Position numbers and translations under genes: made by a program. A model generated the notes under the pieces. The model was given only the letters and a program-made list of their open reading frames with translations. It was not told the DNA's origin and did not search any database. Shown here piece by piece: positions 26,493 to 49,681 of a stretch of DNA of 64,000 nt; within the stretch, counting starts at the first letter, position 1, and each line of letters opens with the position of its first letter. The stretch is taken from positions 1,178,001 through 1,242,000 of the forward strand of contig JAQSEB010000048.1 of the NCBI GenBank assembly GCA_030063045.1. The letters are read 5' to 3'. This stretch comes from Pratylenchus scribneri. Its lineage: Eukaryota > Nematoda > Chromadorea > Rhabditida > Pratylenchidae.

Positions 26493-26498
26493 ATTGCT
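26493..26498 (+). repeat. Left 6-bp target-site duplication (ATTGCT)
   Basis: ATTGCT lies immediately outside the AG that opens the left terminal repeat. The identical hexamer lies immediately outside the right end. A 6-bp duplication is the hallmark of Polinton integration. Confidence 0.95.
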
Positions 26499-27043
26499 AG
26501 TAGGTACTTAACCCCCAGGGGGGCAAACATGGGTAAGGCATTTTTCCTGGCCAACGCCTGTAGGCTTCCTTTTTTGAGGGTGGCCTATACCTATTCGATT
26601 ACTTTTTTTTATGCCAGATGGCCCCTCTTTCCCTCCTTGGAGGGGAAGAGAGCCTCTGCCTATTCGATGACTTCAAATTTCCCTTTCTTTTCAGTTCGGT
26701 CCCAGACCACCCGCTGTGTTTTGTCGCAGCCGGCCGCCCAACCGACTGCCGTCCGTCCCCTTACCCCCAAATTGAGCGGGATGACCATTGACCATTGCCA
26801 ATTTGGCGGGAAAAAAAAGAGAGCCAATGGATGTGGACCAATTTTGGAATGAGCGTTGGCCAACCAATTTTTTGGCGGGAAAAATTGGTAAGGGAAGGGA
26901 ATGGATTTGAGGGAATGGATAAAATGATGATGATTAATGATCCCCCTTTCCCCTCAATTTCCATTTTTAGGTGCGAAGCAATGGAAGGAATGGAGGGGAA
27001 TTGAGCCAACCCAATGGCGTTGATGATGATGATGATTAATGGT
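26499..27043 (+). repeat. Left terminal inverted repeat of Polinton 1
   Basis: Starts TAGTAGGTACTTAACCCCC (AG at the element edge) and matches the reverse complement of the right end for about 545 bp with few differences: small indels, one in a GAT microsatellite near the inner edge, and some substitutions. It contains repeated TTGGCGGGAAAAA and CCAATTTTG words. Several antiparallel open frames of up to about 107 codons occur here and are mirrored at the right end. I treat them as non-coding. Confidence 0.93.
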
Positions 27044-31957: not shown

Positions 31958-32725
31958 ATGTCCTATTTACTTGAAATTCATTTTGAATTTCTTTCCCCTC
32001 GACTCGTCGGACGTATTGTGTATAAGAAAATCGTTGAACCAACGATGGATGATGATGATGATGATGAGCGAAACGTGGAGATGCCAAAGAGAAAAGTGCC
32101 AAAAGACGAGGAGCCAAAGGTAGATGAACCAAATGGGGAGGCAAAGGAAGAGGAGCCAAAAGGAAAAACCTCGCCCCATCATAATGAGCTTATTGATTTT
32201 ATCAATTATTTGGTAGCCATTCTACCCCATTATCCCGAGAATGTTCCCTCCAATGCGGAAATTGTCCATGAGATAAGTGAAAAGGCGGGCCTGACCCTTC
32301 GCGAATTTTATGATCTCGTCTGCTCATTTATGATCGATCCCTCAAAAATCGCCAGCAATTATAAAGGAAAGATACAAAAAAGGATACAGACAAAAGAGGA
32401 ACATGAACTTTTCAAGAAGAATAGGTCTCATTTGATCAAAAAAGAGGAGGTTACTTCCATAGCGGCATACGATCTTGATGACTTGCTCACAATTATTTCC
32501 GGAGCTGCTGCATTTTTGGGCTATTCCTTGGACCCGAAAGCATCCGTTCCGACTACGGTAGAGCCTCCAGCCTCCTCTCCGCCTCCACCCGAGGCATTAC
32601 CTTCGCCGTCGTCGTCAATCTTCAATGAAAGCGAGGAAAAGAAATCGGAAGTGGATAAGCTATTGGATCAATTGCTTGAAGGGGAACCCCAAGTGGAAAA
32701 TAATAATAATAACAAATCAGTTTAA
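31958..32725 (+). CDS. Acidic protein of unknown function, 255 aa
   Basis: A single uninterrupted frame. The ATG at 31958 is chosen because it follows a TATA box and an A-rich leader. A later in-frame ATG at 32045 (MDDDDDDER) is an alternative. Residues about 30-75 are low-complexity acidic/lysine repeats (EEPK units). Residues about 80-200 look folded and mostly helical. The C-terminus is Pro/Ser-rich and then acidic, ending in an Asn run. No signal peptide, membrane segment or known catalytic motif is seen. It is the last plus-strand gene before the internal inverted repeat. I do not recognise it. Confidence 0.7.
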   Translation: MSYLLEIHFEFLSPRLVGRIVYKKIVEPTMDDDDDDERNVEMPKRKVPKDEEPKVDEPNGEAKEEEPKGKTSPHHNELIDFINYLVAILPHYPENVPSNAEIVHEISEKAGLTLREFYDLVCSFMIDPSKIASNYKGKIQKRIQTKEEHELFKKNRSHLIKKEEVTSIAAYDLDDLLTIISGAAAFLGYSLDPKASVPTTVEPPASSPPPPEALPSPSSSIFNESEEKKSEVDKLLDQLLEGEPQVENNNNNKSV

Positions 32726-32842: not shown

Positions 32843-33417
32843 GTCCTTAGCAATGACATGTGTTTGCGTAGCTCGTCGTTAGCGATGACTTTTTTTCCGA
32901 AAAAAAGTCATCGTTAAGCCCATTTTATGTCATCGTTAAGGAGCAAAAATAGCGATTTTAAGGAGAAAACAAGTCTCGCTAAGCAAAAAACATGGAATTT
33001 TTACATTTCAAACTAGGGATTTTTATTTTCCATTTTGCACACCTTAGCAATGCTATCATTGCTAAGGAATCTTCCTTAGCACCGATAGCAATGCTAAGGA
33101 GCAAAAATAGCGATTTTAAGGAGAAAAGTGGTCTCGCTAAGGACGAGCATCTAAAATTTGTTGTAATGCTAAGGAAATGTACGAGAATTTTAGTGTAATG
33201 CTAAGGAATTTTCCGCAAAAATGGGCATATACGCGCGAATATTTTTGGGGCACGCGCGCAAATTTTTGGGGTAGGCGTGAATATTTTTTGGGACAGGCGT
33301 ATGCGTAAATCCATGGACATGCATACATATATCGATACATATGCATATATAATTAGGGGTTTAGGTTCTATGGGCCCGCATGTGATTTATGGGTCTATGG
33401 GTAATGAACGGAGTAGC
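32843..33417 (+). repeat. Left arm of internal inverted repeat
   Basis: About 575 bp that recur in reverse orientation at 38381-38981 with high identity. The arm contains smaller palindromes (AGTCATCG pairs around TTTTTTTCGGAAAAAAA), multiple CTTAGCAATG/CGCTAAGGA words, and an inner end with AGGGGTTTAGGTTCTATGGG. Open frames inside are mirrored in the other arm and are not genes. Confidence 0.85.
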
Positions 33418-33639: not shown

Positions 33640-34167
33640 TTACAATGTGAGTACATGAATTGTGTAAATCCCCATCGTTGATCCGTCGTTGTTCACAAAG
33701 TAGATTGTCCCCACGTTCTTGTTTGTATTGAGCAGAGTCGGCAATTCCACGCGGAAGAATGTGCGTAGAACGCCAAACTCGTTGACCGGCTCAATTCCCT
33801 CGATAAAAACGTAGGCATAGCCTTGGCATAATTGAGCAAATTTCCTGGAAGCCCTATCCCAGAGTTCGGAAGCCTTCTCCGCCGAAAGTGGGGGACCATC
33901 CTTGTAAATTCCCGAATTATTGAATAAATCCAACGCGTCCAAATATTTCCCTCCCGGTGTAAGCTCAAGTGTCTGGCATCCCTTTACTACGGCCCATTTT
34001 TCGGCAAATTCCCTATTCTTACCCGAGTAAAAGACCGCTCGAGTATTCTGTGTTGTAAAATCCAAGACTTCATCGATGAGATAGGACAAGCGCATAAAGA
34101 GCAATTCGGGATCGGTTGAAGAAAGCATTTCCAAAAGAGTAGGCGGGGACAAAATTGCTTGAGCCAT
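33640..34167 (-). CDS. CD38-family ADP-ribosyl cyclase / NADase-like protein
   Basis: Complete 175-residue frame. It carries the signature of the ADP-ribosyl cyclase (CD38/Aplysia cyclase) fold in order: VFYSG at residues 45-49 (family FxSG), TLELTPGG at 66-73 (family TLE with its conserved Glu, here E68), LWDRASRKFAQ at 102-112 (conserved Trp, here W103), an FIEG turn near 121-124, and RVELPTL at 139-145 with the catalytic Glu at E141. Family enzymes turn NAD into cyclic ADP-ribose, ADP-ribose and nicotinamide, or only hydrolyse NAD. Unlike animal CD38 there is no signal or anchor segment and only two Cys, so a cytosolic or virion protein is likely. It is divergent from the PAZ gene, with a GA tract between them. 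The match is by motif memory, not a search. Confidence 0.8.
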   Translation of the reverse strand: MAQAILSPPTLLEMLSSTDPELLFMRLSYLIDEVLDFTTQNTRAVFYSGKNREFAEKWAVVKGCQTLELTPGGKYLDALDLFNNSGIYKDGPPLSAEKASELWDRASRKFAQLCQGYAYVFIEGIEPVNEFGVLRTFFRVELPTLLNTNKNVGTIYFVNNDGSTMGIYTIHVLTL

Positions 34168-34184
34168 TCAATCTAATTTAATTG

Positions 34185-34203
34185 GAGAGAGAGAGAGAGA
34201 GAG
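34185..34203. promoter_or_regulatory. GAGA tract in divergent promoter
   Basis: An uninterrupted GA dinucleotide tract close to the start of the minus-strand NADase-like gene and upstream of the PAZ gene. Similar tracts precede two other genes of this element (36339-36355 and 39771-39778). Confidence 0.4.
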
Positions 34204-34397
34204 CCGATTTTTTTTTGGGGAATTGAGAGGTTTTCCAAAAATTGAGAAAATTTTAAGAATGGTTTCCAAAAATGGTCGGAAATTGTTTTTCCTCATGTAT
34301 TCCCTCCTAAATTCCTTTAGGTGGTATTTGGCTACGAGCCAATTAATTAAGCTCCGCCTAGCTCAAAACTCGTAATGATTTATGACCCCTTCGGCAA

Positions 34398-34405
34398 TAT
34401 AAAAG
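34398..34405 (+). promoter_or_regulatory. TATA box of the PAZ gene
   Basis: TATAAAAG lies 91 bases before the ATG at 34489. Its position rules out the upstream in-frame ATG at 34375, which would lie before the transcript start. Confidence 0.65.
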
Positions 34406-34488
34406 GAAACAATTTCATTCACCGATTTTCATTTCCCTCAAATCATTTTTTTTCATTTTTCCCTTTTGATCATTTCCTCGAGAAAAAA

Positions 34489-35124
34489 ATGAAAACTGTC
34501 CTAGCGGAATGCGCAAAGATATTGGGATGTACAATAAAACAATTGTACGATAAAATGGGTCATCCCCTCTCCCGTGACAAATTACTCATGTTTCTCAAAG
34601 GACGTCGTGTGCGTACGACATATGACGATCTTAGCGGGAACAAAAAATGCTTTACTATCGGCGGAATAACTCGACAGAGGGCCGATAGTTTACCTGCCTA
34701 CGGTAGATTGTCTCGAATCTTCAATGTAACCGTTGCGCAACATTTCTACTCTCGCCATCGAATTCGTCTCCGTCATCCATATCTCCCATGTATTATTGAG
34801 CAACATGGACCCAATTCCGTTGATCGCTACTACCCATTGGAACTTTTGGAATTTGAGGCCGAGGAGAAGGAGAAGGAGAAGGTGACGGATGATGACGTCA
34901 AAAAACCGAACGGTCTTTTTGTGGATGAAAAAGTGGAACGCCTCTTCAAGGAAATCGATAATGAGGATCGGAAGGATATTCTTTGGGAGGAGGAGGATCA
35001 AATTACTCAAACATGGGGAAGAGATGAATGTAGCCAATCGATCAGCTCATCCGATAATAATAGTTCTCTCCGATGCCATCATTATGGCGGTCCCATTGAT
35101 TGTACCAGCTTTTTAATAGATTAA
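34489..35124 (+). CDS. Stand-alone Argonaute-type PAZ-domain protein
   Basis: 211 residues from the ATG at 34489, chosen because it follows the TATA box and an A7 tract. Residues about 34-122 have the layout of an Argonaute PAZ domain, the module that holds the 3' end of guide small RNAs: a KGRRVRTTYD strand, KKCFTIGGITRQRAD, then TVAQHFYSRHRIRLRHPYLP (82-101), and the closing YYPLELLEF (114-122). Aromatic and basic pocket positions seem kept (F55, H85, F86, Y87, H90, R91). No N, MID or PIWI domain is present, so it cannot slice. Residues 123-211 are acidic, then Ser/Cys-rich, and are unknown. It is divergent from the NADase-like gene. A role as a small-RNA-binding silencing suppressor is my inference. 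Capture from a host Argonaute is the likely origin. Confidence 0.78.
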   Translation: MKTVLAECAKILGCTIKQLYDKMGHPLSRDKLLMFLKGRRVRTTYDDLSGNKKCFTIGGITRQRADSLPAYGRLSRIFNVTVAQHFYSRHRIRLRHPYLPCIIEQHGPNSVDRYYPLELLEFEAEEKEKEKVTDDDVKKPNGLFVDEKVERLFKEIDNEDRKDILWEEEDQITQTWGRDECSQSISSSDNNSSLRCHHYGGPIDCTSFLID

Positions 35125-35188: not shown

Positions 35189-35629
35189 TTATTTATTAAT
35201 TAATTTTTGTACAAATGTTTGAACAAATAAATCGGGATTTGAAATTGAGTCTAACAATTTACAATATTGCTCAAGGGAATAGCCTAGGGAAATGAAATAG
35301 ATAAATACAATACAATGATGAGCACAAGTATCGGCCTCCAGGGATTGATAGGCTTTCACATTTCTCTTTACATTTTTATTATTAAAAATGAGGGGTGGGG
35401 GATTTCCATAGCTGTCGAAATATAGCGTTAAATTATTCCGCAAAAAATAAAATGCAACCCAATGGCTTCCGCTCTCATTTGACGTATCCAAATTGACCAC
35501 ATAGGAGGCGGGGAATGTCGATGGCTCATTTAGATGATCAATTGGTAGGCATTGTTTAAACGTGCGTTTTGTCAGCGGGTTTGAACGAAGAATTTTTGTA
35601 ATTTGTAGAGTGTCCATCGGGTACGTCAA
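35189..35629 (-). CDS. Adenain-like cysteine protease
   Basis: 146 residues with the catalytic order of adenovirus-type/Ulp1-fold maturation proteases: GSHWVAFYF (His56), YFDSYG (Asp72), an upstream-of-Cys Gln (Q95, in AYQSL) and ADTCAHHC (nucleophile probably Cys102, second Cys106). Polinton proteases of this class are believed to process capsid proteins. The start overlaps the 3' end of the membrane protein gene by 74 bases in another frame, so the two are probably on one transcript. Convergent with the PAZ gene. All catalytic positions are present. Confidence 0.88.
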   Translation of the reverse strand: MTYPMDTLQITKILRSNPLTKRTFKQCLPIDHLNEPSTFPASYVVNLDTSNESGSHWVAFYFLRNNLTLYFDSYGNPPPLIFNNKNVKRNVKAYQSLEADTCAHHCIVFIYFISLGYSLEQYCKLLDSISNPDLFVQTFVQKLINK

Positions 35630-36140
35630 TATTTGGAGTTGACAATTTTTTATTGAATTCCTCCAGGCTCATATCCTTTGTGAAAATTGAGGGATAACGA
35701 GCGACGAGCCCCATCAATTGTCGCTCATACGGTAGCTGTACTCGTTGTTCCTCTTGTTGCTGTTGTCGCTCAAATCTCTTTAAGCAGCCAAAGGCACGAC
35801 ACGTAAAGAGTAGAGCTGAGACAATGGCAACCAAATAAAAGAGGAAGGCGATTAGGCAATAGGCGTGACCGTATAGATTGGAATTTTCCGGAGTTTCCTT
35901 ACACAACGGAAGGTCCGGAACAAATTGAGGCGTCAAATGATTTATTAGCGGTTGCTCTTGAGGCGGCTTATGAGTAACCGTCGTCGCCGTCGTTGTCGGT
36001 CTCAATGACTCAATAATTTTCTTGTATTCCGAATATTCCGGAAGATTATATTGATACGTATATCGAGGTCTTTCAGTGGGATGACCAGCGATTAATGGAA
36101 TAATAAAAATAATAATTGGGAATAATAATAATAAATGCAT
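35556..36140 (-). CDS. Type I membrane protein with signal peptide
   Basis: 194 residues from the ATG at 36140. A longer frame exists upstream, but this Met starts a classical signal peptide (MHLLLLFPIIIFIIPLIAGH) and is preceded by AAAA. The ectodomain (about 20-91) is Pro/Thr-rich with one Cys. A transmembrane segment lies at about 93-114 (YCLIAFLFYLVAIVSALLF), followed by Cys and a Gln/Glu-rich tail of about 80 residues. The last codons overlap the protease start. This is the layout of a small virion or cell-surface glycoprotein. I recognise no family and no fusion motif. Confidence 0.75.
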   Translation of the reverse strand: MHLLLLFPIIIFIIPLIAGHPTERPRYTYQYNLPEYSEYKKIIESLRPTTTATTVTHKPPQEQPLINHLTPQFVPDLPLCKETPENSNLYGHAYCLIAFLFYLVAIVSALLFTCRAFGCLKRFERQQQQEEQRVQLPYERQLMGLVARYPSIFTKDMSLEEFNKKLSTPNIDVPDGHSTNYKNSSFKPADKTHV

Positions 36141-36414
36141 TTTTATATATAATGGAGTTGTGAAAATGCTTAAATACTTTTTTTTTATCCTAGTTAGTCT
36201 CAAAAAGGAAATAATAAAATGTCCCTCGCCCCAGAGGACCAATATGAAGGCGTAGCTTCTTCTTCCTCTTAAGGTTTATGTTTTTTAGGGTCTATGGTCC
36301 AGCATGTCTATTAGGGGCTTTAGGGGTTAGGGAACTAGAGATAGAGAGAGAGAGATACTATATAAAGGCATAGAATATATTATTAAGTCAATCAAGATTG
36401 ATTTTTTCTAAAAA
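36141..36414. other. Divergent intergenic region with boundary motif
   Basis: Contains a degenerate copy of the boundary motif (TTTAGGGTCTATGG, then AGCATGTCTATTAGG) at about 36283-36330, a GA tract at 36339-36355, and the TATA box of the next gene. Confidence 0.5.
36361..36368 (+). promoter_or_regulatory. TATA box of the pVI-like/MCP unit
   Basis: TATAAAGG, 54 bases before the ATG at 36415, immediately downstream of a GA tract. It probably drives both the pVI-like and the capsid gene. Confidence 0.65.
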
Positions 36415-36921
36415 ATGGTTCATGAGATATTTGATACGAACGCTATTGTCTTTGACGACTATGTTCAAATTGGCAGAGGCTTGGATGAAGCCTTCCCAAT
36501 CTATAGAGGAGGACCCGTCTTCCAAAGAGGAACGGGCATTGGAGATGTTTTTCGCGGAGTATTGCGCTTCTTCATGCCACTAATCCGTCATGCTGGAGTG
36601 GCTCTTCGAAATGAGGCTCTGAATACGGGACATCGTATAATTGAGCAAGTCAAAGAGGGACAACCGCTGAAACAGGCCCTAATTGAGGAAAGTAAAAAGG
36701 GTTTCGAAAATGTTACCGGCGTCAAACAGTTTGGTGGCGGCCAGAGTAATCTCACCGCCGATTCCTCTGGTATGCATCGGCTATCGCCTCGCTACGGGAG
36801 GAGAACTATAAAAAGACGACGATCTAATCCATTGTCACATCAGACCGTCATTAGTTCGAAAATTACGAAACCTATTGTACATTCCACAAAAAGACTTCGA
36901 TCGGACGTTTTTGGTCTCTAC

Positions 36922-36924
<3 letters not shown>
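36415..36924 (+). CDS. pVI/pX-like minor virion protein
   Basis: 169 residues. The N-terminal third has a Gly-rich stretch (YRGGPVFQRGTGIGDVFRG) followed by an amphipathic helix (FRGVLRFFMPLIRHAGVALR) and a second helix (NEALNTGHRIIEQVKEGQPL). The C-terminal half is basic (GRRTIKRRRS) and nucleic-acid-binding in character. Polintons commonly encode a short protein of this kind between other capsid genes. It is compared with adenovirus pVI/pX, which lyse membranes or bind DNA inside the capsid. It lies directly upstream of the capsid gene, separated only by a TAA repeat. Assignment is by composition and position. Confidence 0.6.
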
Positions 36925-36950: not shown

Positions 36951-36953
<3 letters not shown>

Positions 36954-38267
36954 GCATTCTACAAGATTGACAAGGATAGCGTAAATTCCATAACAAATGC
37001 GTTGGATTTCTTTCAAATTCCGCCGACAAATGTTACCGTATCCTCGTCGAAAACTTTTGAGATTTTGACCGATAACCCGATTAATGATCCGCCGTATCAT
37101 TTTAAAATTCATTCCTCCGACAACTATATTGATCCGACAAAAATTTATTTGCTCACCGAATTCCGTATCCGTAAAGAGTCTCATCTCGGCATGGTTATGA
37201 CAAATTTGGCGGCCGGAGAGGATGTGGCGCCTATTCAATTGATCGGTAATACGTTTATGAAAAATTTGAGAGTGCGTGTAAACAATCGAGACGTGTTCAA
37301 CTCAAATTCCCTAATGGCCTACAAGACATATTTTACACATGAGCTCTCATATTCGCCTACAGCAAAAATGTGCCATTTGAATGAGGCCGGCTATTATTCG
37401 GGAATGAACGACGATTCACTGGAGTCCGGAGCCGGACATGAAGCGAGGAAGGCCCTATTTGCGGGGAGTAGAACGGCTCAATTCGTTGCCAAGCTCGATG
37501 CCGATATCTTTTCTCAGCCTCTGTTTCTCCTTAGTCATATAGAGATTGAGATTGAGATTGAGCCAAATGAGTCAAAATTTTTGCTCGTTTCTCCGAACGG
37601 TGCCACAAGATATCATTTGGAAATGCAAGCATGCAAATTGTACGTAAAGAAAATGTCCCTAATGGATGGGCTCAGTCTGGACATTGCGCGAAAATTGGAA
37701 GACAAACCGGCCCGTTATGCTGTGCGAAAATCCGAGATGAAGTCCATGTTCATTAGTCAAGGCCGTTATGAGTTCTCGGCGAATTTATTCCAAGAACAGG
37801 TGCCTCGGCGAATTATCCTTGGCCTCGTGGCCAATGCCGATTACGTCGGTCATTTGGCCAAGAGCCCATTCAATTTCCAGCCGTTCGATGTTCGGGAAAT
37901 CTCCATTGCGGCCAATGGGCGATAATTTCCTCAAACGCATTATGATTTGGCCTATACACAAAATCGCTATATGAGAGCATTTCATGACATGAACGAAGCC
38001 ATCGGCTTTGCAAATATGTCCGATGGGAACGGGATCACGTATGCTCAATATGGGAAAACACATTGTATCTACGTGTTCAATTTGACAAATAGCGGCGAAG
38101 ATCAAGGAGGACTTTTCGATTTGATAAAGACCGGTTCGACAGCTGTACATATTCGGTTTGGTACACCTGTACCCGACGGAGGCATAATGCTCATAGCAAT
38201 GGGTGAGGTCGACTCCTTATTCATGATTGACAGGAACAGAACAATTACAAGTGATACAACTGTTTGA
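36951..38267 (+). CDS. Polinton major capsid protein with an in-frame UAA
   Basis: The frame covers 438 codons, the usual length for a Polinton double-jelly-roll capsid protein, but codon 325 is UAA (37923-37925). The same frame then stays open to 38267 with typical C-terminal features, including FDLIKTGSTAVHIRFGTPVP and FMIDRNRTI. N-terminal family features include DPTKIYLLTEFRI and YKTYFTHELSYS. The stop falls just after AANGR, in a loop-like region. Either it is a single nonsense change in an otherwise intact gene, or the stop is read through or recoded. I describe it as is. It would otherwise form the hexameric capsomers of the capsid. A polyadenylation-like AATAAA follows at 38311. Confidence 0.88.
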
Positions 38268-39936: not shown

Positions 39937-41463
39937 TTAAAAATTTATCACTTTTTTAAAAATGAGAACAACAATGACATTCCCATATTGGAATGGGACA
40001 GGTTTTCCGTCTAATGTATCAATTCTAACTTCAATCTCGCTCACTTCTTTCGGTAATACATTGACATATAGGGGCGAGTCATAAATCTTTTCCACGTATT
40101 CTCCGGGTTCAGCTCCATTGACATTCACAATTCGCAATAATGAGGCCAACGAATTTCCGATAATGACATTTCCGGTTAGCCCCTTGACATAGACGCCAAA
40201 GGACGAGAAGCCTCCACGTAAATCCGTCTTGTATTTGGCCACGTCATTATTTTGTATCATTGCGGGATTGTCGAATCCCAGCACATAGGCCATTTGAGTG
40301 GATAAACTTAAATGTGTTATTTTCGGATGAGCAAAGACGGCCTTGAATCGATCCGTATGCATATCATATCGAAATTCCACCGAACCAAGCATTTCCTTCA
40401 ATTCGTCCACCGGTATTGGAGCATCCTTAGAACTATCCGTCGGAATCGAAGATTCCGAGGGTTCAGGGAGAACAAAAGCCGGAGCCGTATCCGTCTGAGT
40501 CGAAGATTCCGAATATTGTGGAGCCGATGTCGTAGCCTTTGGAGGTTCAACTCGGCTCTTTGGTATAATTATATTGAGCATATCGAGACTAGTATCGAGA
40601 ATGTCGTCAAGTTTCATCTTTTTCCTTGGAGGCTCTTCAACCGTAGTCGGCGTAGCTGTTTGAGTTACCGTAGTCGGAGGGGTTACGGTAGTCGATTGAG
40701 GAGGACGAGAATCGGAACTATCTGCCGAAATCGTAGATTTCGGGGGTTCAGATCTAGGACCAAACATCATCTCCTTCATCTTCGATCCTCTCGATTTGTC
40801 TCGGGGCGGTCCAACCAGTACATCGATAACACCACCGCCAGACTTTTTTTGAGACGTCGGCGGTTCTGGCTGAGTTAACTTTTGAGCTTGAGGTTCAGAT
40901 AATTTTTGAATTGGAGCCGGAGTCGTAGAATTATCCAATGGCTCGGAATTAACCGATGGAATCGTAGATTCGGAACTATCCTCTGGAATCGTAGAATTGA
41001 ACCTCGGCGGAGATGGGACTCTAACGTCGGATGCCGGAGGCGATGTAAGATTAGCGATTGCCCGTCTTCTTCTAGCCAGTGAAATTTCATTAGCGTAGTC
41101 CTCAATTCTTTGATTAATCCAAGTCCTCAAATCTTCAATTTTCCTATGCGATGCTTTACCGACGGGAATTTTGATCATTTTTGAACCCTCTGAACCCTCG
41201 GAATCTGTGATTCCGACGGATAGTTCGGAATCTTTGATTCCGACGGATTGTTCATCTTCATTATAATGTATTCCAATATATTGATCATCCAATGTACCAA
41301 TAGTGGAAGGCCATGAGAAGGGAAAAATGATACTATGTAGACTGCAAACCCAATCGCCAGGGAATTTGAGAGTACGACCCAGATGAACGCGATAATGATT
41401 TGACTTATTCTCCGGATAATCCAACGAATTACTCGGCAAATGAACAATTATTGTATTTGACAT
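39937..41463 (-). CDS. Penton-like minor capsid protein with long insertion
   Basis: 508 residues. The N-terminus (IIVHLPSNSLDYPENKSNHY, LGRTLKFPGDW) and C-terminus (PLYVNVLPKEVSEIEVRIDT, PFQYGNVIVVLIFKK) match the pattern of the Polinton minor capsid (penton) protein that closes capsid vertices. Between them, from about residue 130 to 345, lies a large Ser/Pro/Thr-rich low-complexity insertion with repeated SEPP- and TTVT-like units. It makes the protein much longer than I expect for the family. A vertex-exposed flexible spike or fibre-like extension is possible (inference). A TATA box lies upstream and the start follows AAAATAAA. Confidence 0.75.
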   Translation of the reverse strand: MSNTIIVHLPSNSLDYPENKSNHYRVHLGRTLKFPGDWVCSLHSIIFPFSWPSTIGTLDDQYIGIHYNEDEQSVGIKDSELSVGITDSEGSEGSKMIKIPVGKASHRKIEDLRTWINQRIEDYANEISLARRRRAIANLTSPPASDVRVPSPPRFNSTIPEDSSESTIPSVNSEPLDNSTTPAPIQKLSEPQAQKLTQPEPPTSQKKSGGGVIDVLVGPPRDKSRGSKMKEMMFGPRSEPPKSTISADSSDSRPPQSTTVTPPTTVTQTATPTTVEEPPRKKMKLDDILDTSLDMLNIIIPKSRVEPPKATTSAPQYSESSTQTDTAPAFVLPEPSESSIPTDSSKDAPIPVDELKEMLGSVEFRYDMHTDRFKAVFAHPKITHLSLSTQMAYVLGFDNPAMIQNNDVAKYKTDLRGGFSSFGVYVKGLTGNVIIGNSLASLLRIVNVNGAEPGEYVEKIYDSPLYVNVLPKEVSEIEVRIDTLDGKPVPFQYGNVIVVLIFKKVINF

Positions 41464-41731: not shown

Positions 41732-41948
41732 GGATCTGTACGTATATGCATATCTATAATAGAGCATAAACCCATAGAGACACATGCTGGCCCCTAAAAA
41801 AGAAATGCATAATCCATAGCTCTTAATTGCTAATTTTTTTCCTTTTCTCTCATTTCCACATAAAAATGGCCATACTCAGTTGCATCCAAATGCGCATCGC
41901 TAATTGGCTGGCTGGAAATGCCAGATTTGGACCAACCCTCAAATGCCA

Positions 41949-41956
41949 TATAAAAA
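41949..41956 (+). promoter_or_regulatory. TATA-like box of the polymerase gene
   Basis: TATAAAAA. The first ATG downstream is at 42168, which supports that start over the longer open frame beginning near 41904. Confidence 0.45.
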
Positions 41957-42167
41957 TTTCAGGATTTGGCCTTTCGGGCATCATTCTGCGAAAAAATCTC
42001 AATTAATTTTGATACAGCCAACCAGCAATCTTCAGCGAACCAAAAAAAATCTCCAGCCTCGAAATTTTCACATTTGGCCTTTTCAAATTTATTGTCTTTT
42101 TATCGCGCGCAATATTATTCATTCACCTCATCCTCTTCATCCGCTACAACCACCAGCATTACCAAAA

Positions 42168-45100
42168 ATGGCTTCCCGTCGTCGTTCCCCTGGCTCTTCT
42201 TCCTCTCCTTCTTCTCCACCGTCTTCCCCACCCGTTGCCAAACGTTCCCGCTTTGAAGAGACGGACCCCTCATTGGATGAATTTATTGAAGTGCTTGATG
42301 TGCCCCGAAATGAGGAGGAATTCCATGGCTATCCCATTCATAAACGTGTTTCTGTATTCAAAATCAAAAAATTTCCCGCCCATCCCGAATCGGCTCTCTT
42401 TGGATTTTTTAATGAGGCTGCTGCGCGTGCTGTCATCGAGGCCAAACGTGAGAAGAACATTGATGCGGACCGAATCAGTTTCATGCTCAATTCCACGAAT
42501 CTCGAAGAGGGCCAGCCAATTTTTTCAAGTTTTCAACCGCTGGAGGAGGCCACATTCCATTCGTTGCGCAATATCTTTATGAAAGTTGAACAAAGTCGTG
42601 AACCGTTAGGCAAATCCCTTTTCAATGCTCCGCTCGAAATCCAAGTCACTGTACTCCAGAAGAATGGCATGGCTCAAAAACATAAGAAGAAAATGGTTGG
42701 CGGCGCTCGTCCTCGAAAAAACAACCTCTCCATTACACATACAATTGCGGACAACATGAAGATTGACATGCCAAATCAAATTGGAAATCGTTGCCTCTTT
42801 TATGCACTTCATTCGGCTTTACAAAAACAAATAAGGGGATTGGAGAGGGATGAATGGAAACGTTATAGAAGAAGCCTACATGGGCAAAGAGGGAAAATAC
42901 ATAATGAAGTTACTCAATTAATGGAAACGCTCAAAATACCTCTATGGGAAAAGGAATATGCCGCACAGGATTGGGTGCCCATTATCGTGGATTATTGGAA
43001 TAATGTTTTGCACAAGGATCGCTATCGGATTAAAGTCTTCTTCTTTGGTGAGCGTGGCCTACTTATTCCGGAATACAAATATGGCGCCAAGGACTACAAC
43101 ATCACGCTCGTTATTCATCACGATGGGAAACATTTTATTGGGCTCATCAAGAGTGGCGCTCTTTTTGGGAAAGGCTACTGTCTGCGCTGTGAACGAAGTT
43201 ACAATAAGGGGACAAATCATGCTACGAGTTGTAAGAAGAAATGCCTCAATTGCGGTCGTGTTGGTCCTACATTCCCGTGTGAACCCGTTCCTCAAGTGGA
43301 AATTCCATGTCAAAATTGCGGTAAAACGTTTGTCTCGGAGGAATGCTATCGTCATCATCTCAAAAACAACTTTTGCCAGTACTCAAAAAAATGCGGCACG
43401 TGTGGGGTCGTCTGGGATAAAAGAGTGCGTGAGCATAAATGTGGCGAAACGTATTGTAGGGGTTGCAAGGCATATCATGCGAAGAACAAACAAAGATGCT
43501 GCTTCATTCAACCGCTGGAACGAAAACCGCAACACTCAGTTCGCTATATTGCCTTTGACCTTGAAACAACAGAAATTGAGCAAGAAGTTCCCGGTAGGAG
43601 ACCATATGAGCCGGCACGTGTTAAGAAAATACTCTATCCAAACTTTGTGGGCGCCCGTGTTGCTTGTCAAGAATGCATCGGTAGCGGTGAATGGAAGTCG
43701 TCAAAAATGAGCACGGAATGCGCTGTATGCGGGCCACATCGAACAGTCACTTTTGGAACACATGCCTATGGGGAAACATATCAGGACAAAGCGGTAACAT
43801 GCATCGACGGCGACCCCAAAGGACCACCCATTACTCAATTCACTCGATGGTTGCTCCATGAATTGCCCCAGGAATACGATTCATATATCTACAGTCATTA
43901 TGGCGGAAAATTCGACATTCATTTCGTCATTGTGGAACTCTATAAAGAGGGATGCAATCCGGATTTGGTGCGACGTGGCAACAAAATCATAACAATGGAT
44001 CTCAAAAAGGACAATGGACATCAACTACATATTCGCGACTCATTTAATTTGTTCCCAATGGCGCTGGATGCGTTGCCCTCAGCATTTGGTTTGGATGTTG
44101 CCGACAAAGGACAGTTCCCGCACAAATTGAACAGGCCAGATAATTTTCACAAGCGAATAATTCCGACCCATGATGATTTTATGGTAAAAGAGATGAAAAT
44201 GGAAAAATATGAGCGTTTTATGGAAAAATATGAGCCGAGGGAATTTTATTTAAATGAGGACCTACCTGCTTATTGTATTAATGATGTCGAGATTTTGATG
44301 GCCGCTCTCGTTGCTTTTCGCCAGGAATTTATGGAGATCTCAAAACGGAACAAAGGGGATTTGGATGGAGATGGCTTGGTTCTCGCGAATGCGCAGCCGG
44401 GGATCGACCCACTAACATCATCGCCAACAATTGCTCGAGCTTGTGTGAACATTTTCAAGGCCAATCATCTACCGACTCATCATTTGGCGCTGGTTCCGGA
44501 AAATGGCTACGACAAGGAGGACAACCAATCGGACACGGCCTATCGCTATATGAGATGGTTAGAGGAGGAGGAGGGCGTCCCAATTCATACGGCATATTCG
44601 CATCCCAGGGAGAAGCGCTTTGGACAATACCGAGTGGACGGCTATTATGAGAAGGCAAACGAGTTTGGCGAAATTGAGCGGATCATTGTAGAGGTGAACG
44701 GATGTCCCTATCACGGTTGTTCAAAGTGCTTCCCCAACGACGATGAGCTCATACCAAAAATACAGAAGACACCGGCTCAATTACGGCAAAAGGATGCTCC
44801 GCGGATTGCGTATTTGCGAAGATGTGTGGACCGGGTGGACATCATATGGACATGCGAAATCGACAAAATGAAGAAGAAAGATCCGGATATGAAGCGACGT
44901 TTTGAGCAATATCTGGACCGTTCACCAATCAATCCCAGGGACGCATTTTTCGGTGGGCGAACGGGGCCATCCACAATATTTTATGAGGCAAAAGAAAATG
45001 AGAAAATTAGCTATTACGATTTTACATCCCTTTATCCCTATGTGAACTACATGCTCGAGGAATGGATGATGGGCTATCCGGTGGGCCATCCCGAGGTGCG

Positions 45101-46415
45101 GATCAAAAATGAGCAAGTGAATTGGACATGCGCAGCAGACAACCACTATAAGACCGCGTTGATCAAATGTTTCGTTGTTCCGCCCAGGCAAATTGACATC
45201 CCGATTCTACCAATGAAATTGAGCACAGATGGCGATGAGCGGTTGCTGTTTCCGCTTTGCTCAAAATGCGCAAATACACACAAGGACGGAGGCCACTATC
45301 GACACTATCAATGCATGCATACGGACGATAAAAGAGGTTGGATGGGCACATTTACTTCGGTTGAGCTGGATGCGGCACTAAATGAGGGCTATCGCGTGAC
45401 GGAGCTGGTCCGAGTCTATGAGTACGAGGGAGCCGACCGAGAGCTGTTCCGAGGTTATATGAAGGAATTTTTGGCATTGAAAATCCATGCGTCCGGCTTC
45501 GATAAGAGTATTGAGGGAAAGACAGAAGTGGAAGAAGAATTCATTAGGGAATGCAAACAACGTTTTGGGATTACAATTGATCGGCTCTTAATGAAAATGG
45601 ACAAAGGCAAGAGGCAGTTGGCCAAATTGATCGTCAATAATCTATGGGGACGTTTTGGTATGCGAAATTGGGGACTCCATAAGACGGCAATAACAGATGA
45701 TCCGGCGAAATTGGGTGAAATGTTCCACGATCACTCAATTGAAATTATGCAACTGGACGAGCTGGTAAAGGGGCATGGGAATAAACCGGCTGTAATCATG
45801 ATCACCTATGTCACCAAGAAGGGATGCGCCGAAGAAAATGACGCCTCCAATTTTATCATCTCATTATTGACTACATCTTGCGCTCGGCTCCTCCTCCTAC
45901 GTTCAATGCAAAAAGTTGTGCGCACACCTGGCTGTCAACTCCACTATGTCGATACGGACTCGCTCATTTTCTCCCATCCCAAAGATGAATGCCCTCTACA
46001 GCTGGGACCGCACATTGGCGATTTTACGGATGAACTACCGGAGCATGACATTTTGGAAGTATGTTTTGGGGGCCCTAAACAATATGGAATCAAATATAGG
46101 AAGAAGAATCAGCCGGATGCGGAATTTGAATACATGCTCAAGATTCGCGGTATTACGCTCACATATGATGTCATGAAAAATCAGGGCTTTCAATATGACA
46201 AATTCAAGGAATTGGTGCTCAAATATGCGGACACAGGTGTCATTGACTCAATTGATCTTTTCTACTCAAATTTCCTCAGAACACAGCTAAAGAAGGGCGG
46301 CATTGAAGGAGCAATCGCATCGACAATTCTACAAAAGCAATACAAGCCGGTTATGAGCAAAGGAATGGTCAAACGAGGTGAATACAAGATTTACAATTTT
46401 GGAGAAAACTTTTGA
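42168..46415 (+). CDS. polB: Protein-primed family B DNA polymerase
   Basis: 1415 residues from the ATG at 42168 (context CCAAAAATGG, first ATG after the TATA-like box). Order of parts: a Ser/Pro-rich N-terminus; a region around NRCLFYALHSAL (about 205) and HHDGKHF (about 317) that recalls an OTU-like Cys/His pair; a Cys-rich zinc region with about ten CxxC-type pairs (about 337-446); the exonuclease with IAFDLETTE (about 460), GGKFDIHFV and YCINDVEIL; and the polymerase with DFTSLYP (motif A, about 950), KLIVNNLWGRFG (motif B, about 1155), YVDTDSL (motif C, about 1261) and KIRG. These are the motifs of phi29/adenovirus-type polymerases that start from a terminal protein. All catalytic aspartates are present. 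No introns, unlike its relative at 61766. It would copy the linear element genome. Confidence 0.95.
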   Translation: MASRRRSPGSSSSPSSPPSSPPVAKRSRFEETDPSLDEFIEVLDVPRNEEEFHGYPIHKRVSVFKIKKFPAHPESALFGFFNEAAARAVIEAKREKNIDADRISFMLNSTNLEEGQPIFSSFQPLEEATFHSLRNIFMKVEQSREPLGKSLFNAPLEIQVTVLQKNGMAQKHKKKMVGGARPRKNNLSITHTIADNMKIDMPNQIGNRCLFYALHSALQKQIRGLERDEWKRYRRSLHGQRGKIHNEVTQLMETLKIPLWEKEYAAQDWVPIIVDYWNNVLHKDRYRIKVFFFGERGLLIPEYKYGAKDYNITLVIHHDGKHFIGLIKSGALFGKGYCLRCERSYNKGTNHATSCKKKCLNCGRVGPTFPCEPVPQVEIPCQNCGKTFVSEECYRHHLKNNFCQYSKKCGTCGVVWDKRVREHKCGETYCRGCKAYHAKNKQRCCFIQPLERKPQHSVRYIAFDLETTEIEQEVPGRRPYEPARVKKILYPNFVGARVACQECIGSGEWKSSKMSTECAVCGPHRTVTFGTHAYGETYQDKAVTCIDGDPKGPPITQFTRWLLHELPQEYDSYIYSHYGGKFDIHFVIVELYKEGCNPDLVRRGNKIITMDLKKDNGHQLHIRDSFNLFPMALDALPSAFGLDVADKGQFPHKLNRPDNFHKRIIPTHDDFMVKEMKMEKYERFMEKYEPREFYLNEDLPAYCINDVEILMAALVAFRQEFMEISKRNKGDLDGDGLVLANAQPGIDPLTSSPTIARACVNIFKANHLPTHHLALVPENGYDKEDNQSDTAYRYMRWLEEEEGVPIHTAYSHPREKRFGQYRVDGYYEKANEFGEIERIIVEVNGCPYHGCSKCFPNDDELIPKIQKTPAQLRQKDAPRIAYLRRCVDRVDIIWTCEIDKMKKKDPDMKRRFEQYLDRSPINPRDAFFGGRTGPSTIFYEAKENEKISYYDFTSLYPYVNYMLEEWMMGYPVGHPEVRIKNEQVNWTCAADNHYKTALIKCFVVPPRQIDIPILPMKLSTDGDERLLFPLCSKCANTHKDGGHYRHYQCMHTDDKRGWMGTFTSVELDAALNEGYRVTELVRVYEYEGADRELFRGYMKEFLALKIHASGFDKSIEGKTEVEEEFIRECKQRFGITIDRLLMKMDKGKRQLAKLIVNNLWGRFGMRNWGLHKTAITDDPAKLGEMFHDHSIEIMQLDELVKGHGNKPAVIMITYVTKKGCAEENDASNFIISLLTTSCARLLLLRSMQKVVRTPGCQLHYVDTDSLIFSHPKDECPLQLGPHIGDFTDELPEHDILEVCFGGPKQYGIKYRKKNQPDAEFEYMLKIRGITLTYDVMKNQGFQYDKFKELVLKYADTGVIDSIDLFYSNFLRTQLKKGGIEGAIASTILQKQYKPVMSKGMVKRGEYKIYNFGENF

Positions 46416-47176: not shown

Positions 47177-48458
47177 ATGCCTAACCAAAATAATGAAGCA
47201 AACGTTCGTCCCCGAATTGACTTGCTCGAAGGAGCCGTGCTCACAATTACGAGCAGATTGGAGGCAATTGAGGCTTGGGCCTATCAGGTAATCTCAATTT
47301 CCCTTTGTACTCAATTTCTCTTTGTACTCATTTTCCGCTTTGATCTCATTTTTTTACGTTTTGTACTCATTTTTTGTTTTTTTTCAGCGCCGTGCGCGCC
47401 CCTTCCGACTTGAATGGCCCGGGCTCGCCGGAGCACGGATCAATAACATTCTCCGTATCCGCCGAAATGAGACAAATTCCGTGGCACAGGCGGTGAACCT
47501 TATTGAGCATGTGAGTTTCGTCTTACTCATTTTTAAAAATATTCATTTAGGCTCATTACTCTTTTTTTTTCAAATTAAGTATCCGATATTTTAAATTCAC
47601 TCTATTCATTTACTCAATTTCAGGTTCGTCGCGAACATCCGCCCATCAATGGACAGGAGAGAGTTGCAGCGGCTGTGGCGGCAGAGAATTCGGAACTTGA
47701 TCTTTACATGCGACAAGTGAGAAAATTTTAAATTGAGTACTCAATTAAATTTTACTCATTTTCATAGTACCGGATTAATCAGGAAATTGATCGGGCCTTG
47801 GCCGAAATCGATGTGGACGATTGGAGTTGGTGTACTCCGGAATCGTGGGTAGAGTGTATTCCGAGAAACGAGTCGCCCGAAGGTAAACATGGGAAATTGA
47901 GTATGCTCATTTTTTTTTTAAAAATTGATTTTAAGATACTCGTGCCGCAATGAATGTGAACATCTCCGTGTACAACAGCCGAGTTGCCGAGCTTTGTATG
48001 CCATTCGGTGGGGTTTTTTTTTATTCATATTGATCTTACTCAATTTTAAATCATTTTTACTCATTTCAGTTCTCCATCCGACAGGCCGAAATCGTCGGGC
48101 ATTGTTCGGAGAAGCTTTGCGAGTCGCCGTTGTGGCCGGATACGGATGGCATCGTAATGGACTTCATCGCGCAATCGCGATGTGTGGCGGTTTGGAGGAT
48201 CGTGCTCGCCGCTGGATTTTCGAGGAACCGGCCGAACTCTTCTATGAGGGCCACGATTGCATTACATGCACAACAACAAAGGCTGTAATGTTTCCTCGGT
48301 GTGGACATCTTTCATTTTGTGTGCCGTGTTGCCGCAAATATACGGACAGGATCTGCCCATTTTGTCGTGCGCCAGCGAGGAAATTTAAGTCCGTCCCAAT
48401 AAGGATTCGCCCACCGATGGGCTCAATGTTCCGCAGTCGGAATTCGTTCTTTTTGTGA
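47177..48458 (+). CDS. RING-finger protein, probable E3 ubiquitin ligase, 6 exons
   Basis: Exons 47177-47287, 47388-47510, 47624-47716, 47768-47882, 47936-47995 and 48070-48458 give 296 residues. All five introns are GT-AG (51-113 nt). The first three are phase 0, the last two phase 1. The C-terminus is a C3HC4 RING: C231, C234 (CITC), C245, H247 (RCGH), C251, C254 (CVPC), C263, C266 (CPFC). The compact spacing is like the RINGs of IAP and MULAN-type ligases, which pass ubiquitin from an E2 to a substrate. The N-terminal 165 residues are helical and Arg-rich without a known substrate domain. No BIR domain is visible. Viral RING proteins often redirect host ubiquitin. That role here is inferred. 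Confidence 0.85.
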
Positions 48459-49675: not shown

Positions 49676-49681
49676 ATTGCT
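49676..49681 (+). repeat. Right 6-bp target-site duplication (ATTGCT)
   Basis: Identical to 26493-26498 and directly abuts the CT end of the element. Confidence 0.95.

Follow-up and report, generated by a model that had tools for sequence, protein, structure and literature searches.

The PAZ domain is usually presented as belonging to Argonaute and Dicer, and its occurrence as a separate gene within a Polinton raises the question of what such an element would do with this single component of the silencing machinery. The gene in question, of 211 aa, lies in a 64-kb stretch of Pratylenchus scribneri DNA, the whole of which was analysed and is referred to here as the window. Both the kind of element and the PAZ domain are already known. 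The open-licence literature searched yielded no Polinton or virus with a stand-alone PAZ and, as far as that literature shows, a selected PAZ-only gene family in Polintons is undescribed.

Structure and gene content of the Polinton

The Polinton spans positions 26499-49675 of the window and is delimited by terminal inverted repeats (TIRs) of 532 and 540 bp with 96.7% identity, flanked on both sides by the target site duplication (TSD) ATTGCT. The following features were identified:

26493..26498, no strand: left copy of the TSD, 6 bp, ATTGCT
26499..27030, + strand: left TIR of the Polinton, starting AGTAGGTACTTAACC
31958..32725, + strand: 255-aa ORF with many charged residues; nothing in Pfam at E <= 1
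32843..33415, + strand: left arm of an inner inverted repeat, flanking the block of ADP-ribosyl-cyclase-like (ADPRC-like), PAZ, protease and capsid genes
33640..34167, - strand: ADP-ribosyl-cyclase/CD38-like ORF, 175 aa, head-to-head with the PAZ gene; PF02267 E 1.5e-4, 21.7 bits (cut-off 25)
34168..34488, no strand: region of 321 bp between the divergent PAZ and ADPRC-like genes
34489..35124, + strand: stand-alone PAZ gene, 211 aa
35189..35629, - strand: adenovirus-type cysteine protease-like ORF; Peptidase_C5 E 0.0098, below cut-off
35556..36242, - strand: ORF of 228 aa containing hydrophobic stretches; nothing in Pfam at E <= 1
36415..36924, + strand: 169-aa ORF located upstream of the capsid gene; nothing in Pfam at E <= 1
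36951..37925, + strand: major capsid gene, N-terminal 324 aa, its frame closed by a stop codon
38382..38981, - strand: right arm of the inner inverted repeat, 91.5% identical to the left arm
39937..41463, - strand: 508-aa ORF, 63% identical to an ORF of a sister Polinton; no Pfam match; perhaps encoding a minor capsid protein, a conjecture based on its location
41904..46415, + strand: DNA polymerase B (PolB), 1503-aa frame; PF03175 E 1.2e-39
47925..48458, + strand: RING-finger ORF close to the right terminus of the Polinton; PF13920 at cut-off, 27 bits
49136..49675, - strand: right TIR of the Polinton
49676..49681, no strand: right copy of the TSD, ATTGCT

The window copy is not intact, its capsid frame being broken by a stop at 37923-37925 and resuming as a same-frame ORF at 37947-38267. 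The capsid piece returned no Pfam match; a capsid relative (P0124) that is 100% identical to it over the query has a predicted double jelly-roll (DJR) fold, matching the capsids of an iridovirus (SGIV), PBCV-1, Sputnik and mavirus. Neither an integrase nor an ATPase was found in the window copy by tblastn with two ORFs of a sister element on contig C188 as queries, of which the ATPase query scores 23.9 bits with Pox_A32 (cut-off 22.8) and the integrase query is weak (rve E 0.096 and Chromo E 0.013, both below cut-off). The inner inverted repeat around the ADPRC-PAZ-protease-capsid block is also present in the related copies L013-L015. With its TIRs, 6-bp TSD, PolB, adenovirus-type protease-like ORF and DJR capsid, the element resembles the Polintons/Mavericks of nematodes, from which it differs in carrying a stand-alone PAZ gene and a stop in the capsid frame.

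A PAZ domain outside Argonaute

The initial annotation had proposed that this Polinton encodes a stand-alone PAZ domain of Argonaute type, and the profile, the fold, the element context and the absence of PIWI all confirm that proposal. The window protein matches PF02170 with 40.2 bits, against a curated cut-off of 28.8, and the same profile matches 15 of 15 A1 members at E <= 0.001; model and profile agree on a predicted PAZ fold of Argonaute type. An ATG further upstream, at 34375, lies in the same open frame, but the relatives start at the residue encoded at 34489. Two parts can be distinguished in the protein:

34489..34857, + strand: PAZ domain, residues 1-123, mostly confident in the model
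34858..35121, + strand: acidic tail, residues 124-211, of low model confidence, with 24 D/E and 12 K/R among 88 residues

Compared with the PAZ of Argonautes (PF02170; human AGO2, nematode ALG-1, WAGOs), the Polinton protein comes without N, MID or PIWI domains and has a tail of its own. No scored PIWI match lies within 5 kb of any of the 150 scored PAZ-family matches in the genome (two within 10 kb); among the 21 top PF02170 matches in the genome, 16 have PIWI within 5 kb on the same strand. At two places, C139:561641-584779 and C203:163243-191841, a Polinton-type PAZ locus is located between consecutive PIWI pieces that keep profile order on one strand, as if Polintons had been inserted into two host Argonaute genes.

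To compare the family with AGO2, 163 family rows (156 of them distinct) were aligned, leaving out four short P proteins. A separate selection step discarded matches that covered fewer than 105 positions of the profile, as well as the duplicates L001-L010. The AGO2 positions compared (R277, R315, H316, Y311, Y338 and others) are those that we take to line the RNA 3'-end pocket. The R315 column holds R/K in 146 of the 156 distinct relatives, that of H316 holds H in 151, that of R277 K/H/R in 145 and that of Y338 Y/F in 147; at Y311 the residue is H in 126 and Y in 26, and at Y279 it is F in 124. The H271 column differs from AGO in presenting Y in 150 of 156. In the F294 column, 155 of the 156 have Ala, and the following column is occupied by Tyr/Phe in 152, perhaps through an alignment shift. 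The AGO2 pocket positions thus appear to be mostly conserved in class, in a predicted pocket that is not identical to that of AGO.

Tryptophan-bearing tails

The tails of the family diverge fast and keep common features. In 42 representatives of clusters at 60%, D and E make up 23% of the tail, and W accounts for 2.2% of tail residues versus 0.23% of domain residues, a roughly tenfold difference. The C-terminal residue is exactly W in 17 of the 42; shuffling the tails predicts 0.84, and 17 was reached in 0 of 20,000 shuffles. Among 153 distinct tails, a set excluding six cut-ended tails, exact duplicates and matches short of profile position 118, W is the last residue in 74. GW or WG is present in 54 of these 153, and Gly precedes a tail W in 11 of 65 cases, against 2.8 expected. 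A pattern resembling GRxECSQ...W is common to many tails, with a looser SQ/TQ core in 18 of the 42 representatives. The window tail carries W166 and W176 (TWGRDECSQ), and its C-terminal residue is not W. No tail W occurs in 10 of the 42 representatives, and in the branch P0095-P0118 none of 22 tails ends in W and 12 are devoid of it.

A gene family associated with Polintons

The initial annotation concerned one gene, which proved to belong to a large family found, in this genome, mostly alongside Polinton genes. In its own genome (227 Mb, 276 contigs), the PAZ protein has at least 150 matches: of 292 candidates, 150 were scored, and all of these reached E <= 0.001. The corresponding numbers are at least 125 for the capsid (123 of 334 candidates scored), at least 98 for PolB (95 of 504) and at least 150 for the protease at E <= 0.001 (150 of 289); in all these counts the pieces of split genes are counted apart and near-identical and tandem copies are included. 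A capsid match is found within 5 kb of 74 of the 150 scored PAZ matches and within 12 kb of 102, and a capsid or PolB match within 20 kb of 107. A scored capsid, PolB or protease match lies within 20 kb of 118 of the 150, and of 86 of the best 88; 3.4% of the genome falls within that distance of such matches. Conversely, a PAZ match is present within 20 kb of 104 of the 125 capsid matches and 82 of the 98 PolB matches, among the matches scored. The 32 scored PAZ matches without such neighbours comprise short, stop-bearing and contig-end copies, together with some open ones. PAZ copies are evenly spaced on C138 (42312, 80721 and 119130, 38.4 kb apart) and C63 (11712, 31857 and 52001, 20.1 kb apart), which suggests tandem Polinton arrays.

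The association is not universal. Among the scored capsid matches, 21 of 125 have no scored PAZ match within 20 kb, including those of a close sister lineage. The members of that lineage (C188, C15:1239991, C97:568488, C253 and C194) have capsid identities of 89-90% and no scored PAZ within 20 kb. The C188 copy has genes for PolB, the capsid and an ATPase-like protein, along with an ORF that weakly resembles an integrase; in two stretches of it (7.5 kb), the family profile detected no PAZ (best E 0.3), and no recognisable substitute for the PAZ gene was seen there. Given these copies in which no PAZ was detected, Polintons can probably dispense with the gene. Furthermore, the position and strand of the PAZ gene relative to the capsid gene differ between lineages.

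Relatives in other nematodes and purifying selection

A profile search of protein databases identified 133 relatives. The 120 listed range from 109 to 272 aa, a span partly set by the search, which considered proteins of 0.55-1.75 times the query length, and many are already labelled 'PAZ domain-containing'. Those named among these 120 belong to three nematode genera: Meloidogyne (M. enterolobii, M. hapla, M. graminicola and M. incognita), Heterodera (H. trifolii and H. schachtii) and Globodera (G. rostochiensis). The viral contigs scanned with PAZ or capsid queries contained no relative, and BFVD gave no match at E <= 0.001. The PAZ protein P0013 and the capsid protein P0178 have the same sources and the same longest contig, of 22,616 bases, and hence probably lie on one contig, a hint of PAZ-capsid linkage outside the genome analysed here. 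For Heterodera, no same-sized source contig was shared by PAZ and capsid proteins among the 120 of 133 and 120 of 278 listed.

Within the genome, the identity of PAZ copies to the window copy correlates with that of the neighbouring capsids (Spearman 0.82 over 102 pairs; 0.83 over 52 distinct value pairs), as expected if both had travelled together. A tree with host PAZ domains had also been envisaged. Built with 70 family representatives and seven host-type PAZ, it separates the two sets by one branch (SH-aLRT 97); with 126 columns and long branches, it was used for this split only and does not place the origin of the family among Argonautes. The Polinton PAZ family may have arisen once. The median dN/dS (NG86) is 0.076 in 39 pairs with dS of 0.03-0.2, 0.069 in 22 pairs (dS 0.2-0.5), 0.169 in 8 pairs (dS 0.5-1.0) and 0.183 in 2 pairs (dS 1.0-1.5), with single pairs reaching 0.378; the 71 pairs are non-independent. 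These sequence comparisons indicate that the PAZ genes are under purifying selection.

A putative mimic of Argonaute

The reading that we favour, with modest confidence, is that the PAZ protein acts as an Argonaute mimic, suppressing host small-RNA silencing by competing for guide 3' ends, with a tail that possibly docks on Argonaute. A free PAZ would grip RNA 3' ends, whether those of guides or those of siRNA duplexes bearing 2-nt 3' overhangs, and would thereby compete with the PAZ domains of host Argonaute, WAGO or Dicer proteins. The tail tryptophans may dock on Argonaute in the manner of GW/WG hooks, and a docked tail would bring the PAZ decoy to loaded complexes. RNA binding, Argonaute docking and suppression are activities that we infer for this protein; guide-end sequestration, or competition for Argonaute partners, is consistent with the class conservation of the predicted pocket, the purifying selection and the tryptophan-bearing tails.

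Suppressors that sequester siRNAs, such as p19 and B2, have folds that differ from PAZ. The Polinton protein is likewise proposed to take small RNA from Argonaute, with the difference that it would hold the 3' end by means of Argonaute's own domain. A second comparison is offered by viral suppressors of RNA silencing whose GW/WG motifs dock on Argonaute, as reported for SPMMV P1 (PMC2904775) and for TCV P38 and HIV-1 Nef (PMC12454879). The Polinton PAZ resembles them in being encoded by a virus-like element and in its Gly-preceded tail W and its acidic tail of low model confidence. It differs in that its tail docking is putative and in its PAZ domain, none being mentioned for those suppressors in the available portions of the two sources (PMC2904775, PMC12454879). 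As to the pathway concerned, 36 putative Argonautes are reported for M. incognita; they include the WAGO and CSR-1 classes but not the piRNA Argonaute PRG-1, of which Meloidogyne is reported to be devoid (PMC5934874); since PRG-1 is reported absent there, the target in that genus would be another pathway, of siRNA type.

The PAZ stretch also occurs inside two very long open frames, of 3606 and 2338 aa, in which it scores 31.1 bits, above the cut-off, and 25.3 bits, below it, respectively. The 2338-aa frame also matches DUF5641 (E 8.6e-8), which we take to be a BEL/Pao polyprotein domain, and hhalign relates its PAZ to the Polinton family with 96% probability. A genome search located this kind of PAZ in six places; at five of these the frame measures 2338-3606 aa, and the weakest match scores 33 bits; L073 (C46:518368-519075) and L074 (C234:110834-111550) are long-frame loci. 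A broader version of the mimic reading is put forward tentatively and with rather more doubt than belief: free PAZ proteins would form a deep family, spread over numerous Polintons in plant-parasitic nematodes and present in a BEL/Pao-type frame as well, that disarms silencing through 3'-end competition and docks on Argonaute through its tryptophan tail.

Alternative functions of the PAZ gene

Foremost among the alternatives, and unlikely in our assessment, is a role in handling the nucleic acids of the element itself, whereby PAZ would cap the 3' ends of transcripts or of a displaced strand, protecting them or recruiting PolB. The proximity of PAZ to most scored PolB matches and the selection on the gene are in line with such a role, as is the report that DNA can bind the PAZ of AGO2 (PMC6361761), but Polintons without a detected PAZ, such as C188, and the varying position and strand of the gene relative to the capsid argue against it. 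Also unlikely is that PAZ promotes silencing, delivering guide 3' ends to host Argonautes, or taking them over, so that silencing is directed against rival elements (superinfection exclusion) or host genes. An Argonaute-type PAZ with a possible Argonaute-docking tail would suit this task, and many related Polintons coexist in one genome; against it, we know of no guide-loading activity of a single PAZ on its own, and nothing in these data separates such a reading from suppression.

The divergent neighbour raises a further alternative. Gene 33640-34167 looks like an ADP-ribosyl cyclase: a profile of its 12-row family returned 15 PDB matches at E <= 1 (best 5bnf, E 5.3e-4). Eleven are annotated as ADP-ribosyl cyclase, CD38 or BST1, most of them with E above 0.001, and three, with E above 0.5, are chlorophyll-binding proteins. 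The entry 5bnf, left uncharacterised by its depositors, is taken here for a member of the ADP-ribosyl cyclase family, which would bring the number to 12 of 15. The genome holds 56 ADPRC-like matches (60 of 60 candidates scored). Six same-scoring copies (C57:3993, C101:3689, C127:3852, C172:187205, C42:2876040 and C232:49351) have a shortened protease-like match beside them, and at least five of these six are situated some 4 kb from the end of a contig and are perhaps subtelomeric.

Prokaryotic Argonaute-NADase pairs provide a loose analogue for a functional pair in which PAZ would sense RNA ends and the ADPRC-like protein would consume NAD or emit a cADPR signal. In keeping with this, 44 of the 56 ADPRC-like matches have a PAZ match within 3 kb, all 44 head-to-head with gaps of 227-597 bp, and the neighbour's profile matches are those just described. 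Nevertheless, the 56 ADPRC-like matches compare with 150 scored PAZ matches, many without a detected partner; the other 12 have no PAZ within 3 kb (it is farther off in seven, and five lie on contigs without a scored PAZ match); the catalysis is putative; and the region between the genes may simply be a common promoter. Such a pair is regarded as improbable.

Less probable still is a virion or assembly component, with the barrel reused as a structural or RNA-packaging part: almost half of the scored PAZ matches have a capsid match within 5 kb, but a structural part would not obviously call for conservation of pocket class, the gene varies in position and strand, and some Polintons have no detected PAZ. 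That the gene is a host fragment, captured passively and functionless, is barely credible, for although its domain is of host Argonaute type and the genome is rich in Argonaute-type PAZ and PIWI exons, the dN/dS values, the split from host-type PAZ, the co-variation with the capsid and the occurrence in three nematode genera all disfavour it.

Implications for silencing in nematodes

A selected, many-copy, PAZ-only family means that these elements took a core part of the very machinery that silences them. If the Argonaute-mimic reading is true, the family would constitute a class of silencing suppressors built from the silencing machinery itself, and such a suppressor could help to explain the high number of Polintons in the genome of this worm. 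It would also offer a small protein for direct tests of arms races between transposons and nematode Argonautes.
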